A stretch of 64,000 nucleotides of DNA from Methanolacinia paynteri (GTDB taxonomy: Archaea; Halobacteriota; Methanomicrobia; Methanomicrobiales; Methanomicrobiaceae): the NCBI RefSeq assembly GCF_000784355.1, contig NZ_KN360928.1, forward strand, positions 67,820-131,819, read 5' to 3'. Shown here piece after piece: positions 21,341-43,695 of this stretch. Position 1 is the stretch's first letter. Each line of letters starts with the position of its first letter. Under the pieces are notes generated by a model. The model was not told where the DNA came from, did no database searches, and saw only the letters and a program-made list of their open reading frames with translations. The position numbers were made by a program, and so were the translations under genes.

Positions 21341-23085
21341 AAAGAAACCGGATTATCAGGCGTCTTAATCATTTCTTATTCCGTGACAGGCTCAATTTTT
21401 ACATCGAACTGCTGATATTCCAGATTATCTTCTATTCGATTCTGCTTTATTATGCCATACCATATCTCGAGGGAACAAGACTGACCCTTCCGGAATCCGT
21501 TCTCTTCGTAATGCAGACGATGACGACGGTCGGCTATGACCTGCTCACGTTCTTCCCTACGGAAAATCCGCTGACAATTATAATTATTATAATAATTATG
21601 TCAACAGGCGTATTCACCGTTTTAATGATAATCCCTGCAGCAATGGCACCGTTCATCCAGGAGGTTTTCAGGCCGCAGCCTCCCGTAGCGGTTTCTGAAA
21701 AGATCAGCGGCCATGTCATAATCACCGGTTATGACGAACTCGTAAAATCATTGATCGAAAGCCTTCTTGTATCAAGCCTCAGGGTTGTTCTGGTCGAAGA
21801 GGATGAAAATAAGGCATTTGCCGCGATGAACGATTTTTCAAAATTTAAAAAGGAAATATATGTCATCAGCGGATCGTATGATGAAAACGAGACCTGGACC
21901 GGGGCGGATATCGCAACTGCAGCCAAAATAATCATCTGCGAACAGGAGTATATATCATCAAAGATTATCCTCGGGATCCGGGACAGGACCACCGCAGAGA
22001 TCACTGCCGTCGTCGACAGGCTGTTATACGGAAGGTATCTCCTCTACGCGGGTGCAGATCACATAATATCACCGAAGGATGTAACCGGAAGAATTCTTGC
22101 AAGGCACGCATCGCTGACGCCGGAAGTAGACATCATATACGAAGCCACAAAGGGAAACAGGATACGACGAGCAGAAGTCAGTGAAAATTCCCTTAAATTC
22201 GTATATATCACCGTATCGGAAGGATGCGGGATCATCGGCAGGACCCTTGACGAACTGAACCTCTACGAGAATTACGGAGTCGAACCGATCTTCATAATGA
22301 AAAAAGGGCATTTCTACTTTGAAAAAGGCGAAAATGTCTCGATCGACCGTTCGACGACGATCTTTCTCTTAGGGCGAACGGATTCGATAACGAAGCTATT
22401 TGAAAATGAACTCAAATGTTCAATCAGAGAGGAAAAACTCGCTGTTATATCGGGTTACGGCGATCTCGGACGGGTCGTTGAGAGCGAACTTGAAAAGGCC
22501 GGTGTCCAGCCGCTTGTAATTGATCCCAATATTGACGAAATTACAGGAATTAAGGGAGATGCACAGGAGGAGTCGGTTCTAAAGGCCGCACATATAGACA
22601 AGGCGGAAGCATGCATAACGGCGGCGGACGACGACGATGTCAACATCTTCACGACGCTGATTGCAAGAAACCTGAACCCGGGGCTTCACATACTCTCAAG
22701 AGCGAACAAATCCTCATCCGTCGAAAAACTCTATCGTGCCGGGGCCGATTATGTCGCCCTTCTGCCAACATTGGGAGGGCAGATAATCGCTGCAACAGTT
22801 CTCCAGGACATCGTATCGATTCTCCTCGACCTTCCGAAGAACATGAAGGTCGTAATGAAGCATATAACCGAAGATATTTCGATGTCTGTTGGAGAATGCG
22901 AACGGATGACCGGTGCGAAGATTATCGGGATCGAAGGGCCGAACCATACTCTTATCAGACCACCTCCTGAGACAAATCTTGAAAACGGGGACTCTGTTAT
23001 CGCATTCGGCGATTATAATGCACTGAAAAAACTCATAAAATTACTTTCGGGTGAAAAATATGGAAATATTATGCGAAGGCTGTGA
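21337..23085 (+). CDS. Potassium channel subunit with two RCK/TrkA domains
   Basis: 582 aa from ATG 21337 (ATGA overlap with ncsA); the longer upstream frame is spurious. TM1 lies at about 20-45, the pore helix leads to the selectivity filter TTVGYD (about 66-71), and TM2 covers about 85-110. Two Rossmann RCK units follow: HVIITGYDELVKSLIES near 127 and KLAVISGYGDLGRVVES near 370, each with a TrkA-C-type lobe. The first replaces the usual GxGxxG with GYDELV, so it may not bind nucleotide; the second keeps GYGDLG. This tandem-RCK-in-one-chain layout resembles GsuK-type channels. Overlaps nadE by 26 bp. Confidence 0.87.
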   Translation: MKRNRIIRRLNHFLFRDRLNFYIELLIFQIIFYSILLYYAIPYLEGTRLTLPESVLFVMQTMTTVGYDLLTFFPTENPLTIIIIIIIMSTGVFTVLMIIPAAMAPFIQEVFRPQPPVAVSEKISGHVIITGYDELVKSLIESLLVSSLRVVLVEEDENKAFAAMNDFSKFKKEIYVISGSYDENETWTGADIATAAKIIICEQEYISSKIILGIRDRTTAEITAVVDRLLYGRYLLYAGADHIISPKDVTGRILARHASLTPEVDIIYEATKGNRIRRAEVSENSLKFVYITVSEGCGIIGRTLDELNLYENYGVEPIFIMKKGHFYFEKGENVSIDRSTTIFLLGRTDSITKLFENELKCSIREEKLAVISGYGDLGRVVESELEKAGVQPLVIDPNIDEITGIKGDAQEESVLKAAHIDKAEACITAADDDDVNIFTTLIARNLNPGLHILSRANKSSSVEKLYRAGADYVALLPTLGGQIIAATVLQDIVSILLDLPKNMKVVMKHITEDISMSVGECERMTGAKIIGIEGPNHTLIRPPPETNLENGDSVIAFGDYNALKKLIKLLSGEKYGNIMRRL

Positions 23086-23806
23086 ATGCGAAAAGATAGA
23101 ACAGATGATCAGGCATACCTTCTGGTCATCAGGAAGAAAGAGGATTTTCATCGGCCTTTCGGGAGGAATCGATTCTGCCCTTGCCGGGGTTCTTTCATCA
23201 AAGGCGATAGGAGGTGAGAACGTGTACGGGTATTTCCTTCCCTCTGATGTTACTCCTGAGAAAGATAAAGAAGATGTGGAGGATTTGTGCAATAAATTTG
23301 GAATAAACCTGGCAATAGTTCCTATCTCCTCCATACTCCACTCATTTGAAACAATCCCCGGGTATACCGAAACGAAATACCTGAAGGGAAATCTTATGGC
23401 TAGAATCAGGATGACGCTCCTTTATTATTATGCAAACCTGAACGACGGCCTGGTATGCGGAACTTCAAACAAGACCGAATATCTCCTCGGCTACTGCACG
23501 AAACACGGGGATGAAGCAGCCGATATCCAGCCTCTTCTTCACCTGTATAAAACGGATGTCCACAGACTGGCTAAAGAGGCCGGAATTCCTGAAACAATAC
23601 TAAATAAGGAGCCGTCCGCAGGATTTTACACAGGACAGACAGACGAGGATGAGATCGGATTTTCATATGAAGAGATCGATGCAGCACTGAGATCTCTTGA
23701 GCAGAACGGCTGGAAGGCTTCGGGAAATACAGAGGAAGACATACTTGAAAAAGTTAAGAACACGGCACATAAGAGAAACAGGCCGCCGAATCTTTTGAAG
23801 TTTTAA
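23060..23806 (+). CDS. nadE: NAD synthetase, ammonia-dependent
   Basis: Amidates deamido-NAD to NAD using ATP and ammonia, the last step of NAD synthesis. About 248 aa from ATG 23060, which has GGTGA seven bases upstream; a GTG at 23051 would add three residues. The P-loop is GLSGGIDSALAG (about 35-46), and the substrate region GTSNKTEYLLGYCTKHGDEAADIQP is typical NadE. No glutaminase domain is present. The start lies inside the 3' end of the channel gene, pointing to co-transcription of ncsA, channel and nadE; the RCK domains may sense NAD(H), which would give a functional reason (inference). Confidence 0.93.
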   Translation: MEILCEGCECEKIEQMIRHTFWSSGRKRIFIGLSGGIDSALAGVLSSKAIGGENVYGYFLPSDVTPEKDKEDVEDLCNKFGINLAIVPISSILHSFETIPGYTETKYLKGNLMARIRMTLLYYYANLNDGLVCGTSNKTEYLLGYCTKHGDEAADIQPLLHLYKTDVHRLAKEAGIPETILNKEPSAGFYTGQTDEDEIGFSYEEIDAALRSLEQNGWKASGNTEEDILEKVKNTAHKRNRPPNLLKF

Positions 23807-23819
23807 AAATTTAATGAGT

Positions 23820-24200
23820 GACGAAGAGAAAGGTCCTCCTTATTCAAGGGAGGGCGACGAATCCCCCTCCCTATAACCCTCCCCCTCATCGTGATAAGTC
23901 GCAATATGGGATGGACAAGCATCCCCGATTGCTCCAGATGGAGCATTTCCATTTTGAACCATGACATAATTCAGTCATAGACTTATCTTTTTTCTACCCT
24001 GTTCTTCTCCCGGCCGCAGACCGACTATCGCCATAGCGCAAAGCCCTGAGGCCGGGGCGTGTCTACCGAAGGGCTGTCGCCCTTTCGAAACCCAAGGCGA
24101 CCTTCAGCCCCCGTTTTATTCTATCAGAACCTTGTTCGCGAAGTGAACCTGGTGCAGGGGTTGTCACAAGAAGGATCTTCGCTATTACGGGATGAAAGAA
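23820..24200 (+). repeat. Intergenic modular repeat element, copy A
   Basis: A roughly 380-bp GC-rich non-coding block between the convergent nadE and pgi genes. It shares four blocks with copy B at 43400-43695 in reverse orientation: 23863-23904 (40 of 42 bases the same), 24031-24062 (30 of 32), 24074-24105 (29 of 32) and a looser block at 24134-24163. Hairpins include GGGATG/CATCCC at 23908-23925, TGCTCC/GGAGCA at 23930-23945 and AAGGGC/GCCCTT at 24069-24084. Compared with copy B the last two blocks are in swapped order. No convincing protein is encoded. It may be a structured RNA, a MITE-like remnant or a bidirectional terminator-like element. Confidence 0.75.
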
Positions 24201-24229
24201 AATTTAATTTAAAAATTATTCCAATTTTT

Positions 24230-24928
24230 TCAGGGAACTATATCAAAATCATCAAGCAGAGACGGTTTATTGAGGAATGCAAGTTTTTCATCGTCCCCGA
24301 CGAGATCGTAGATCGATGTTTTCGCCGGAATTCCAATGCAATTCAGGTCTTTGGGTTTTACGGTCCGTATTTCATCGATATCACCGTAGGACGGATTCGC
24401 CCTCCAGCCTTCCTCCTCGAATTCATAATATGCTGCTCCACGTTTTTCCTCATAATGCCCGTAGATGCTTGAAAATGCATCGGATACGATATTCGACATC
24501 AACAGCTCTTCGGAGGACGGATTTATCGTAACATGACCATATTCCGGGGGAATCAGGACTACGTCACCAGCACCCGCCTCTACCACTACGATATCCGAGA
24601 GATCTTCCTTCTGCAAAAGATAATGAGCACTTCCGTGTATAACCTGATATAACTCCGGGTATCCTTTCCCGTCCGGTGCTTCAGGATGATAATGACCCTT
24701 TGTCTTGGCAAATTCTCCGGAAATGGTTCCCGGCGGAATCCTCGTTAAGTCAAACCTTAACAAATGCGCGGAAAGCCATTTTTTATCGCTATCGCTTTCT
24801 GATAGATCCCTGTACATAAAATAGAGATTATTGTTGGGATATGCGCCGGGAACAGCAAGAACGGGCTGCATATCATCTATTGTTCTTATGGCCGGTGCCG
24901 GAAGGTGGCCCTCCCAGAATTTATTCAT
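24230..24928 (-). CDS. pgi: Phosphoglucose isomerase, archaeal cupin type
   Basis: Interconverts glucose 6-phosphate and fructose 6-phosphate; the cupin-type enzyme unrelated to the usual PGI. The metal site is visible as TKGHYHP with the downstream Glu in GYPELYQV and a later His in PEYGHVTIN, a classic cupin arrangement. 232 aa from ATG 24928 (MNKFWEGHLP). It overlaps the stop of the upstream surface-protein gene by 8 bp, so it is translated from a shared transcript with that gene although the functions look unrelated. Confidence 0.9.
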   Translation of the reverse strand: MNKFWEGHLPAPAIRTIDDMQPVLAVPGAYPNNNLYFMYRDLSESDSDKKWLSAHLLRFDLTRIPPGTISGEFAKTKGHYHPEAPDGKGYPELYQVIHGSAHYLLQKEDLSDIVVVEAGAGDVVLIPPEYGHVTINPSSEELLMSNIVSDAFSSIYGHYEEKRGAAYYEFEEEGWRANPSYGDIDEIRTVKPKDLNCIGIPAKTSIYDLVGDDEKLAFLNKPSLLDDFDIVP

Positions 24929-26213
24929 TATTCTTCTTTTTTCTTGACCATACAAAATACCCTATGCCTACAATGATGAATACCACCAGTGTAAGGACAA
25001 TCGGATTGGTAAGAATCTCCATACCGGATCTCTTCTCAATAACAACCTGGGCCTTCATCGAATCCGAGATCTGGCTGTTATCAAGCGCATCGCGGTACCT
25101 GATCTCCGTATCGATTGCATAGGTTTTCAGTGTAGCCTCGTCATCGACCGTGACTTCATATATTGCCGTTACAACCTCTCCGGGTGCAATATCGCCAAGA
25201 TATGCCGTATCATCGTTGCTTGTAAACGGATCGACCGCACTTATACGTGCCTGTGCATTATAAACCGTGGTAGCTCCGGTATTTTCATACTGAATCGTAA
25301 TCTTGCCCTTTTCCCCGGGAGAGAGAACAGAAGGCTCGGATACAACTTCAAAGTCTACCTTACCCCCTACATCGACACCAACCGTAACGGCATCGGAGGA
25401 TACTGTTTCACCTTCATAGTCTGTATATTCAACAACCACCTGGACAGGATAATTCTTGGCTTCACCGTCATCAGATACGGATGCCTTAAAGACGACTGTT
25501 TTTTCTTCGCCAGGCTCGAAAACACTCTCATAAACACTTGCATCTGTCGGAATTACGGGTGAACCGTCAACAGTCTCAAGTTTTATAACTGCATTTTTAC
25601 CGCTCTCCGATCCGACATTTTTCACATTCATTGTGATATAACCCTCTGTCCCTACGTTGAGAGAATCGGTTGTAACATTCGAAACCTCAAGAACAACCAT
25701 CGGCTTTATAGTAATAGGAAGTTCCTGATCAAGTTCAACGGTTTTATAGTAATACCTGATACTGTCGGTCCCGAACTGCTCTGCATAATTCAGGTACTGG
25801 TAACTGATATCCGCGAGCAGATCATACTCGCCGGCCGGTGCATTTTTATCAATCTTAACAATAAAATTGACGGTTGTACTGGATCCTGCCGCAATATCTC
25901 CAATCATCTGCGGATCTGATTTTACAGTAACCGGAGCGTCGTTTTTCAGCAGATCAACAGTGACCATCTTCGCCATATCGGGATTGTCATCGCGATCTAC
26001 AATATCCGAAGATGTTATCTTCATCTCTTTCAGTCCGGAATTCTGGATCACGATAGGAATCGTTACCTCATCTCCCGGTGAGAATTCGTTTGTGCCGGAG
26101 ATCGCGACTGTAATTATCGGATCACCACTCAGGTATTTGGTTCCGGCAGATGCAGGAGCAGCAATAAATAATGCCGCAATAATCAAAACTAAAGCCATAT
26201 ATTTAATTTTCAT
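24921..26213 (-). CDS. COG1361/CARDB surface protein with C-terminal membrane anchor
   Basis: 430 aa from ATG 26213, which sits behind GGGAGG; an ATG 15 bp upstream lies before this ribosome-binding site. Signal peptide at about 5-24 (ends APASAG). Three to four CARDB-type immunoglobulin-like domains follow (about 30-385), with repeated patterns such as SPGDEV, GTEGYITMNVKNVG and SPGEKGKITIQYENTG. A single TM helix (about 402-421, TNPIVLTLVVFIIVGIGYF) ends in a Lys/Arg-rich tail. COG1361 S-layer-like domains are frequent in methanogen envelopes; a similar protein at 45598 goes with an ABC exporter. Divergent from the TrmB regulator. Confidence 0.82.
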   Translation of the reverse strand: MKIKYMALVLIIAALFIAAPASAGTKYLSGDPIITVAISGTNEFSPGDEVTIPIVIQNSGLKEMKITSSDIVDRDDNPDMAKMVTVDLLKNDAPVTVKSDPQMIGDIAAGSSTTVNFIVKIDKNAPAGEYDLLADISYQYLNYAEQFGTDSIRYYYKTVELDQELPITIKPMVVLEVSNVTTDSLNVGTEGYITMNVKNVGSESGKNAVIKLETVDGSPVIPTDASVYESVFEPGEEKTVVFKASVSDDGEAKNYPVQVVVEYTDYEGETVSSDAVTVGVDVGGKVDFEVVSEPSVLSPGEKGKITIQYENTGATTVYNAQARISAVDPFTSNDDTAYLGDIAPGEVVTAIYEVTVDDEATLKTYAIDTEIRYRDALDNSQISDSMKAQVVIEKRSGMEILTNPIVLTLVVFIIVGIGYFVWSRKKKNNE

Positions 26214-35800: not shown

Positions 35801-36076
35801 AAATATAACGACGCGGGAAAATCATTTGAAAAAGCTCTCGAATACGGCTCCGAAGATCCAAGTGCATGGTACGGAAAGGCTGTCGCCCTTGAACAGCTCG
35901 GCAAACATGATGCCGCAATAGAGGCTCTGAATAAAGTGCTCGAGATAAAACCGGACGATTCCGCAGCAGCATATAAGAAAGGCATCTGCCTTACCAACCT
36001 TGGTAAATATGCCGAAGCTTCGGAATGTTTCGAAGTAGCATTCAGGAAAGAGAGAAAACAGAAATTTGAAGACTGA
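32864..36076 (+). CDS. Giant tetratricopeptide-repeat protein
   Basis: 1070 aa built almost entirely of TPR units: roughly 27-30 copies of the 34-residue helix pair with W/L-G-Y-A-F-P spacing, for example AWQALGNSLYESGDYQGALQ and AWYGKAVALEQLGKHDAAIE. No signal peptide or TM helix; a short stretch near 350-385 departs from the repeat. Such scaffolds bind other proteins; partners are unknown. A GGAG lies 13 bp before ATG 32864. The three downstream minus-strand regulatory genes and the large upstream gap suggest a signalling context (inference). Confidence 0.9.
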   Translation: MAFLDKLKGQSDNPNPWIDKATTHFEQGKYHEAVKEFEKAIEIDPENSGICYLMGRSLMYLSKYQDAERYLKRAVAASPENILAWQALGNSLYESGDYQGALQCFDAILKADPSIKDILNKKVDLLELQGDYEQAAETCLKLLEIEPANIRIKERFGILCMRSSDWGRALDAFSAVISTDQANTRSMVYTGEILEIIGKNDEALEIYETALKQDPSCIPALYNRAYLLEKLGRYSEAAEAFREINTNNPNDLIAAFRRATDLFWTGAYGECAHTIEMILKKTPDDIKAWQMMGVALELLGEYERAVACYDNVLKAAPAHSETWYHRGICLSGLGRYTEALNCYEHVTEQTGGTGVSWINNNVDLSLFDKDTAETQKGTKTSIKKTNLLQMKGDAYMHLGRFHDAYECYSKILETHPENIAVWRNISECLIRTGESHRVAEALRKVLEAFPNDQGALEKKGIAHLNTGEYEKALECFDAILNEDETNILVWEMRADLLAGMGMAEEALQSLDQILAISPGDQKSLLKKAEILYAMSLPEEAAACLEPIISSGKINLVAWKCYISILETTGRLEEALSAIGELESEGLEEVGLKTQKARILANMGDIEGSAREYEEIVGTHPEQSGLALILGHELEILGRHEEAAAAFEHFVRANREDAGGWREFGRSLGKIGEYVKAAKSFEKAAAFRPEDKGILFDQAMLLLEIGEYKQSADIFDALRGSDPDNPAVRRGRAFALAGAKKYSAAKEAFEEYFEKAKESSDNEARKALAEVCEKTGDFDLAAGNYAAVLEENKEDIDTWLRLTNLLRYMSRYEDVIEATDNIAEFEPENIPALKIRGDVLYRLGRYEQASETFQKVLELDDSNRLCRMMFAESLIESGRYKEGLQQFGIALEGSETDPESYYQCAVAQVHMGGYEKAIKFANRVLEKVPNLIGAILLKAHASERLGQFEEALDLYEEALRIDSKNHGLWSARGMLLISLGKYNDAGKSFEKALEYGSEDPSAWYGKAVALEQLGKHDAAIEALNKVLEIKPDDSAAAYKKGICLTNLGKYAEASECFEVAFRKERKQKFED

Positions 36077-43317: not shown

Positions 43318-43399
43318 ATTCAGGACTTTTCTTTTTTTTGATCCTATAAAAATTTAAAATTGTTTAAGCCATGCTCCTGCTCTAATTTTTTCAATATAA

Positions 43400-43695
43400 T
43401 CGAAGGTCGTCGTGGGTTTCGAAGGGGCGACAGCACTTAGGTAGGCAACCCTTGCGCAAGTTCACTACGCGAACACGCCCTGACCTCAGGGCTTTGCGCT
43501 ATGGTGATAACCCGGCCTTTCGGCCGTGGAGAGGACAAAAATGAAGGAAGAAATTAATAGCCAAAGCCTCTTCAGATTCTGAAAGGAGCGATGCAATTCA
43601 GGGAGCAAAAGGGGATGCTCGTCCATCCCCTTTGCGACTTATCACGACGAGGGGGAGGGGTATAGGGAGGGGGAATCTTCCCCCTCCCTCAAAAA
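43400..43695 (-). repeat. Intergenic modular repeat element, copy B
   Basis: About 300 bp on the minus strand, between the convergent M50 protease and ABC ATPase genes; the element reads in the opposite direction to copy A at 23820-24200. Shared blocks are 43632-43673, 43473-43504, 43402-43433 and 43446-43474. Hairpins in the minus strand: GGGGATG/CATCCCC (43611-43630), GCCCTGA/TCAGGGC (43478-43493), CGGCC-GAAA-GGCCG with a GNRA-type loop (43512-43525), and an 11-bp stem GGGAGGGGGAA/TTCCCCCTCCC at 43666-43689. The GCCCTGA stem is kept in copy A through a T-G wobble, hinting at RNA structure. Confidence 0.75.

Follow-up and report, generated by a model that had tools for sequence, protein, structure and literature searches.

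A mosaic intergenic repeat of Methanolacinia, probably a non-autonomous mobile element, with one module linked to ISL3-family insertion sequences

Introduction

BOX, BIME and similar small mosaic repeats are well described in bacteria, and their origin is usually unclear. The BOX (boxA-boxB-boxC) and SPRITE repeats of pneumococci are modular, with parts in a set order; dozens of copies lie between genes in each genome, their secondary structure is stable, their insertion sites are polymorphic, and an IS has been proposed to mobilise them in trans (PMC3049150). The same paper reports that a repeat is enriched at the 3' ends of convergent genes. BIME and REP sequences, with their RAYT transposases, are mosaics of hairpins outside genes, with a short tag before a hairpin. 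The mobile GC clusters and double-hairpin elements of mitochondria are G+C-rich hairpins scattered in AT-rich gaps and are treated as mobile DNA (PMC4478555, PMC2800124).

The element described here was found in Methanolacinia paynteri, in a window of 64,000 nucleotides, by which we mean the whole stretch of DNA that was analysed. It has the architecture of BOX and BIME, with several short modules in a set order, many intergenic copies and no ORF, and by analogy it would work like such a bacterial mosaic repeat; the likeness is one of architecture and not of membership by sequence, and inspection by eye recognised no homology to BOX, BIME, ERIC or REP. It differs from BOX and SPRITE in being archaeal, in combining three unrelated modules with nested insertions, in lacking a tandem boxB-like array and in having ends without recognisable terminal inverted repeats, and no sequence relation to them was seen. 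Unlike BIME and REP, it resides in a genus without a Y1 (RAYT) gene, its modules are larger, and one of them is linked to ISL3 elements. The mitochondrial elements belong to another genetic system and no sequence relation was seen, whereas for the Methanolacinia element a DNA transposon carrying one module can be identified. Literature searches found no paper describing the element, nor is it mentioned in the portion of the M. petrolearia genome paper available to us (PMC3035365); this species is the reclassified Methanoplanus petrolearius (PMC4149034).

Results

Two composite copies in the window

For identification of related copies within the window, positions 23,781-24,240 were compared with it by BLASTN. 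An inverted match was found in the 43.4-43.7 kb gap at E = 3e-27, far beyond chance, and further blocks shared by the two gaps in the same comparison had E = 6e-10 and 0.024. The original prediction of blocks common to both gaps in inverted orientation was thereby confirmed, as were its statements that both gaps lie between convergent genes, with which our reading of the gene context agrees, and that no protein is encoded, neither gap containing an ORF of substance. Block identities had been put at 94-95% and about 91%; they are somewhat lower than that, at 89% over 88 bp for module A, 38/43 for module C and 26/31 for the right end of module B. The features of the two copies and of the flanks of the first are as follows.

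23051..23806, plus strand: left flanking gene, NAD synthase (named by inspection), convergent with the right gene
23806..23815, no strand: left flanking direct repeat AAAATTTAAT, a candidate target-site duplication, beginning at the stop codon of the left gene
23816..24198, minus strand: composite element, copy A, with the minus-strand order B interrupted by C, spacer, A (from sequence comparison)
23846..23932, minus strand: module A of the 23.8 kb copy, with GGAGC, hairpin 1, GACTTATC core, purine mirror repeat and hairpin 2
24023..24164, minus strand: module B of the 23.8 kb copy, interrupted by module C
24060..24131, minus strand: segment with module C nested in B, the C consensus match being 24065-24105 (from comparison and direct reading)
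24199..24208, no strand: right flanking direct repeat AAAATTTAAT
24230..24955, minus strand: right flanking gene, cupin-type glucose-6-phosphate isomerase (named by inspection), convergent with the left gene
43399..43442, plus strand: module C of the second (43.5 kb) copy
43444..43518, plus strand: module B of the second copy, uninterrupted
43604..43689, plus strand: module A of the second copy, the top covariance-model match of the genome (105 bits)

Module C of the 23.8 kb copy lies inside B, flanked by GGGCGTGT and TGTTCGCG; at 43.5 kb, B is intact, with C after it. A swap of two blocks between the copies, as had been proposed, is therefore only apparent, and arises because C sits within B at 23.8 kb. 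The modular character of the element was upheld, with three modules, A, B and C, in fixed relative orientation. A search of the window with Rfam 15 gave no match above gathering score, and a tRNA search found none. At 35870-35890 of the window, outside both composites, a short stretch also matches module C in its left part (19/21).

Copy number and distribution

The genome that contains the window (G000) is a 2.79 Mb draft in 46 contigs, and the searched set held two other Methanolacinia genomes; that of M. petrolearia is complete (2,843,290 bp). A DNA search of the window genome gave 60 matches, and a covariance model of module A gave at least 51, at least 52 and at least 50 matches in the three Methanolacinia genomes. 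Elsewhere in the family, several genera have 1-21 matches to this model, and in other families of the order matches are weaker but numerous. In a set of 295 genomes from across the phylum, matches to the model at E <= 1e-4 were confined to Methanomicrobiales. Further copies had been proposed as a check of the original prediction, as had covariation, which is present in hairpin 1 of module A and in the stems of B (see below); both exist, so the absence that would have counted against it was not found.

Module profiles were used to scan 91 loci of two Methanolacinia species. Module A was nearly always found together with B, C or both, their relative orientation being constant, and the three modules are without coding content. 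Spacers between the modules match among dispersed copies in some subfamilies only, and it is therefore only for these that copying of the whole composite can be claimed. In L243 / L282, a mosaic was seen in which halves of B and A are fused at a shared GYGATA core motif; this junction suggests recombination at the motif.

Sequence and predicted fold of the modules

In module A, read on the GGAGC strand, GGAGC is followed by hairpin 1, which has a GGGATG/CATCCC stem and a loop of the CTTGTC type. On the 3' side of hairpin 1 lie GACYTATC, a purine block (GGGGGAGGG), about 5 nt and hairpin 2 (GGGAGGGGGA - loop - TCCCCCTCCC). The purine block mirrors the purine arm of hairpin 2 (GGGGG[A/T]GGG - 3-7 nt - GGGAGGGGG - loop - CCCCCTCCC). 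The lengths of the mirror tracts change together across families, the inner tracts being 3/3 or 4/4 (rho 0.76, n = 30), a signal that counts few independent events because it consists mostly of differences between families.

That the shared blocks form hairpins, as anticipated, is borne out by covariation of the stems. In 44 sequences, 8 of the 12 pairs of hairpin 1 are altered on both sides, one of them being UA in 36, CG in 7 and GC in 1 and broken in none. Among 42 copies with inner arms four nt long on each side, 80 of the 93 non-canonical pairs of hairpin 1 are G.A or A.G, and most of these copies carry such pairs in tandem. G.A pairs are favourable on the GGAGC strand, where the other strand would present T.C, and the GGAGC strand is for this reason likely to be the one that folds. 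Hairpin 2 is too conserved within Methanolacinia for covariation to show there, and no T-run or terminator pattern follows it. Predicted folding of both window copies is stronger than that of shuffled sequences (z -3.0 and -3.4).

For module B, the apical pair is GC in 49 and AT in 6, and the outer stem is paired at 68% compared with 59% when shuffled (0/1000 shuffles). A core motif of YTATC type is common to A and B. The core motifs of the two modules are complementary, but the idea that they pair in a long-range stem was rejected, as complementarity within elements is 7.92 against 7.95 +/- 0.07 for shuffles.

Relation of module A to ISL3 elements

In Methanomicrobiales, module A lies inside ISL3-family insertion sequences and MITEs, oriented so that hairpin 1 faces the terminal repeat and hairpin 2 the gene. 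Intact ISL3 insertion sequences of relatives measure 1.29-1.57 kb, carry terminal repeats of the GGCTCTTC type and show exact 8-bp duplications. In two that are intact with their transposase (L304 and L307, genome G148), module A is located between the left terminal repeat and the gene, and in two further genomes (G011 and G005) it is found at the 3' end of ISL3 genes or remnants, adjoining the terminal repeat. The transposase of the A-bearing elements (L304, L307 and those of G011) is of the ISL3-type DDE class (PF01610). In several copies from four other genera, an ISL3-type terminal repeat stands mostly 61-73 nt before A and matches at 17-21 of 21 positions. Some of the sampled ISL3 elements are without module A (e.g. 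L297-L299). A remnant in another family (L301, genome G038, family f6) has a different hairpin array, including GCGACCTATCGGTCACC, between the gene end and the terminal repeat.

MITEs derived from these elements, which share their terminal repeats and have 8-bp duplications, could also be identified. Genome G014 has about 20 covariance-model matches, many of which are near-identical MITEs of about 387 bp with imperfect terminal repeats; exact 8-bp duplications were present in 5 of the 6 that were aligned. These six (L178, L181, L184, L187, L190 and L193) are roughly 94-99% identical, with fresh duplications. An ISL3 transposase was not found in G014, despite its MITEs.

Methanolacinia differs in that its copies are joined to B and C and are without ISL3 terminal repeats. 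Terminal inverted repeats beginning GGNTCTTC, present in the A-bearing elements of relatives, are absent next to all 99 Methanolacinia copies examined, which scored like shuffles. A search for the ISL3 transposase (PF01610) gave zero matches in the three Methanolacinia genomes (G000-G002), and the gene is present in a few relatives. Because the window copies have neither the terminal repeats nor the transposase, we refer to them as ISL3-derived in part, and not as members of the family. The observation that no transposase is near therefore stands for the window, but not for the wider picture, since other genera show a link between module A and ISL3 transposases. From these comparisons, module A would either have descended from ISL3-family insertion sequences or have been captured by them.

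Insertion polymorphism at orthologous sites

At an otherwise collinear place, 94-95% identical, M. petrolearia is without the 23.8 kb copy. In the window, this insert is bounded on both sides by the AT-rich 10-bp direct repeat AAAATTTAAT; the polymorphism may reflect an insertion, or an exact deletion in M. petrolearia. In the third Methanolacinia species a different A copy occupies this gap, in opposite orientation, together with a fragment resembling C. At a second place (L027/L266), the insert consists of module C by itself, with a 21-bp direct repeat on each side; M. petrolearia has this repeat only once. The direct repeats in Methanolacinia are thus 10 and 21 bp, not 8, and are single cases, automatic calling of indels and target-site duplications on collinear pairs being too noisy. 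At one locus with paired elements, no transposase was recognised between them (few ORFs, read by eye).

Of the orthologous gaps occupied in both species, 9 or 10 hold copies in opposite orientation. Where A was scored in both species, none of 8 such gaps gave reciprocal best matches, so simple inversion in place was rejected for most; A copies in the same orientation best match their ortholog in 8 of 18 cases. Since the opposite-orientation copies are not each other's best match, the same gaps seem to receive copies repeatedly.

Genomic context and divergence

Gaps between convergent genes are enriched for elements, making up 39 of 87 gaps with an element and 20 of 116 without (odds ratio 3.9, p = 2e-5). 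The remaining gaps with elements are co-directional (34) or divergent (14), and in co-directional gaps the strand of the element is not clearly biased (18 vs 12).

Identity at orthologous loci with the same orientation is 87.8% for module A, 87.8% for spacer, 93.1% for coding sequence and 93.8% for module B, which is somewhat better conserved than A. Purifying selection on module A was therefore not seen at these loci; it drifts at the rate of spacer, and there is no sign of the host preserving it. The covariation in A would have to go back further in time, or reflect selection acting on the copies as they spread, or constraint on the transposon lineages.

Discussion

Taken with the ISL3 link, these results make it probable that the feature at 23.8 kb belongs to a family of mosaic elements that have spread through Methanolacinia as non-autonomous mobile DNA, with ISL3 ancestry for module A. 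In the mechanism we propose, an ISL3 transposase once mobilised module A in trans; copies of the module in Methanolacinia would then have lost the ISL3 terminal repeats and joined other hairpin modules, B and C, and copies would survive mainly where gene ends converge, as insertions there should be least harmful. The fold would probably be kept for the spread of the element itself and not for the host, serving it, for example, as a site for a transposase or host factor, or as a barrier to read-through transcription. The original prediction had preferred a structured RNA or protein-binding repeat to a decaying transposon. Against this are the polymorphism of the 23.8 kb copy between species, with direct repeats at its ends, the presence of module A inside intact ISL3-family insertion sequences and a 387-bp MITE, and the divergence of A at the rate of spacer.

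Among other explanations, the elements could be domesticated bidirectional transcription barriers or protectors of mRNA 3' ends, their hairpins stopping read-through or decay from both sides. Stable hairpins, the enrichment in convergent gaps and the recurrent, independent occupation of the same convergent gaps would fit such a role, but the many copies in co-directional and divergent gaps, the empty sites in sister species and the lack of a T-run or terminator pattern after hairpin 2 would not, and selection against insertions in promoters is also expected to yield a convergent bias; we judge this rather unlikely. It is unlikely that the many intergenic copies are expressed as a family of structured, non-coding RNAs that serve the host. 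The covarying hairpins are in favour of such a family, as are the folding of the window copies beyond that of shuffles and the G.A tandems of hairpin 1, stable on one strand only, so that a single strand seems to be folded. The RNA family is opposed by the spacer-like speed at which module A evolves, by the loss, gain or replacement of copies at orthologous sites, by the lack of an Rfam match and by the finding that copies between co-directional genes do not clearly favour either strand.

A host protein that organises the chromosome or binds DNA might dock at the elements, which are widely dispersed and share a YTATC-type core motif between A and B; the fast turnover and drift at orthologous loci argue against this, and a similar core in ISL3 elements points to a mobile element instead, leaving it highly unlikely. 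The conserved GGAGC directly before hairpin 1 resembles the tagged palindromes of bacteria (PMC3733652), and given this GGAG tag one could suppose REP-like repeats moved by RAYT, a Y1 tyrosine transposase. Since Y1 (PF01797) is absent from all three Methanolacinia genomes (G000, G001 and G002) in a search that finds it in relatives and controls, and since the elements with which module A is associated are of the ISL3 DDE type, this reading was rejected as almost certainly wrong.

Within the preferred reading of a mosaic mobile element, a more specific role for module A can be put forward, tentatively and with considerable doubt, from its sequence. It might be an order-wide, strand-specific fold of ISL3 transposons (a G-rich triple helix, a G-quadruplex or a strand-exchange switch) that controls transposition or shields the element from transcription, and that was later freed as a mosaic repeat in Methanolacinia.

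One archaeal order here presents side by side intact ISL3 insertion sequences with the folded segment, MITE derivatives and a transposase-free mosaic repeat, Methanolacinia being the genus in which the folded segment survives in a mosaic repeat without any ISL3 transposase. With the complete genome of M. petrolearia, mobility, transcription and the purine mirror fold are directly testable. About a hundred intergenic gaps in Methanolacinia genomes can now be labelled.

Additional observations

In one genome of another family (G075, family f4), tens of related G+C-rich elements were seen (L153, L171, L175, L179 and L182), in which TATCGCCAT is followed by a purine mirror hairpin. Some of them have an inverted GGCGATA about 100 nt further on, and their hairpin 1 differs. 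A short palindromic repeat, GAAACAAAGGTTTC ... ATCACAACGTGAT, is common to Methanolacinia and G014 (L246, at about 1970-2030, and L169, after the A copy).

Several contig breaks of the draft assembly fall at these repeats, many contigs of the window genome beginning or ending in module A (e.g. C8:1-83, C26:1-94, C40:1-75, C11:1-99, C34:1-47 and C2:1-45); contigs C5 and C44 also have ends inside it. C26 and C40 apparently start in the same copy, since they have matching ends and a common place of alignment in M. petrolearia; they could be joined at this shared copy of module A.
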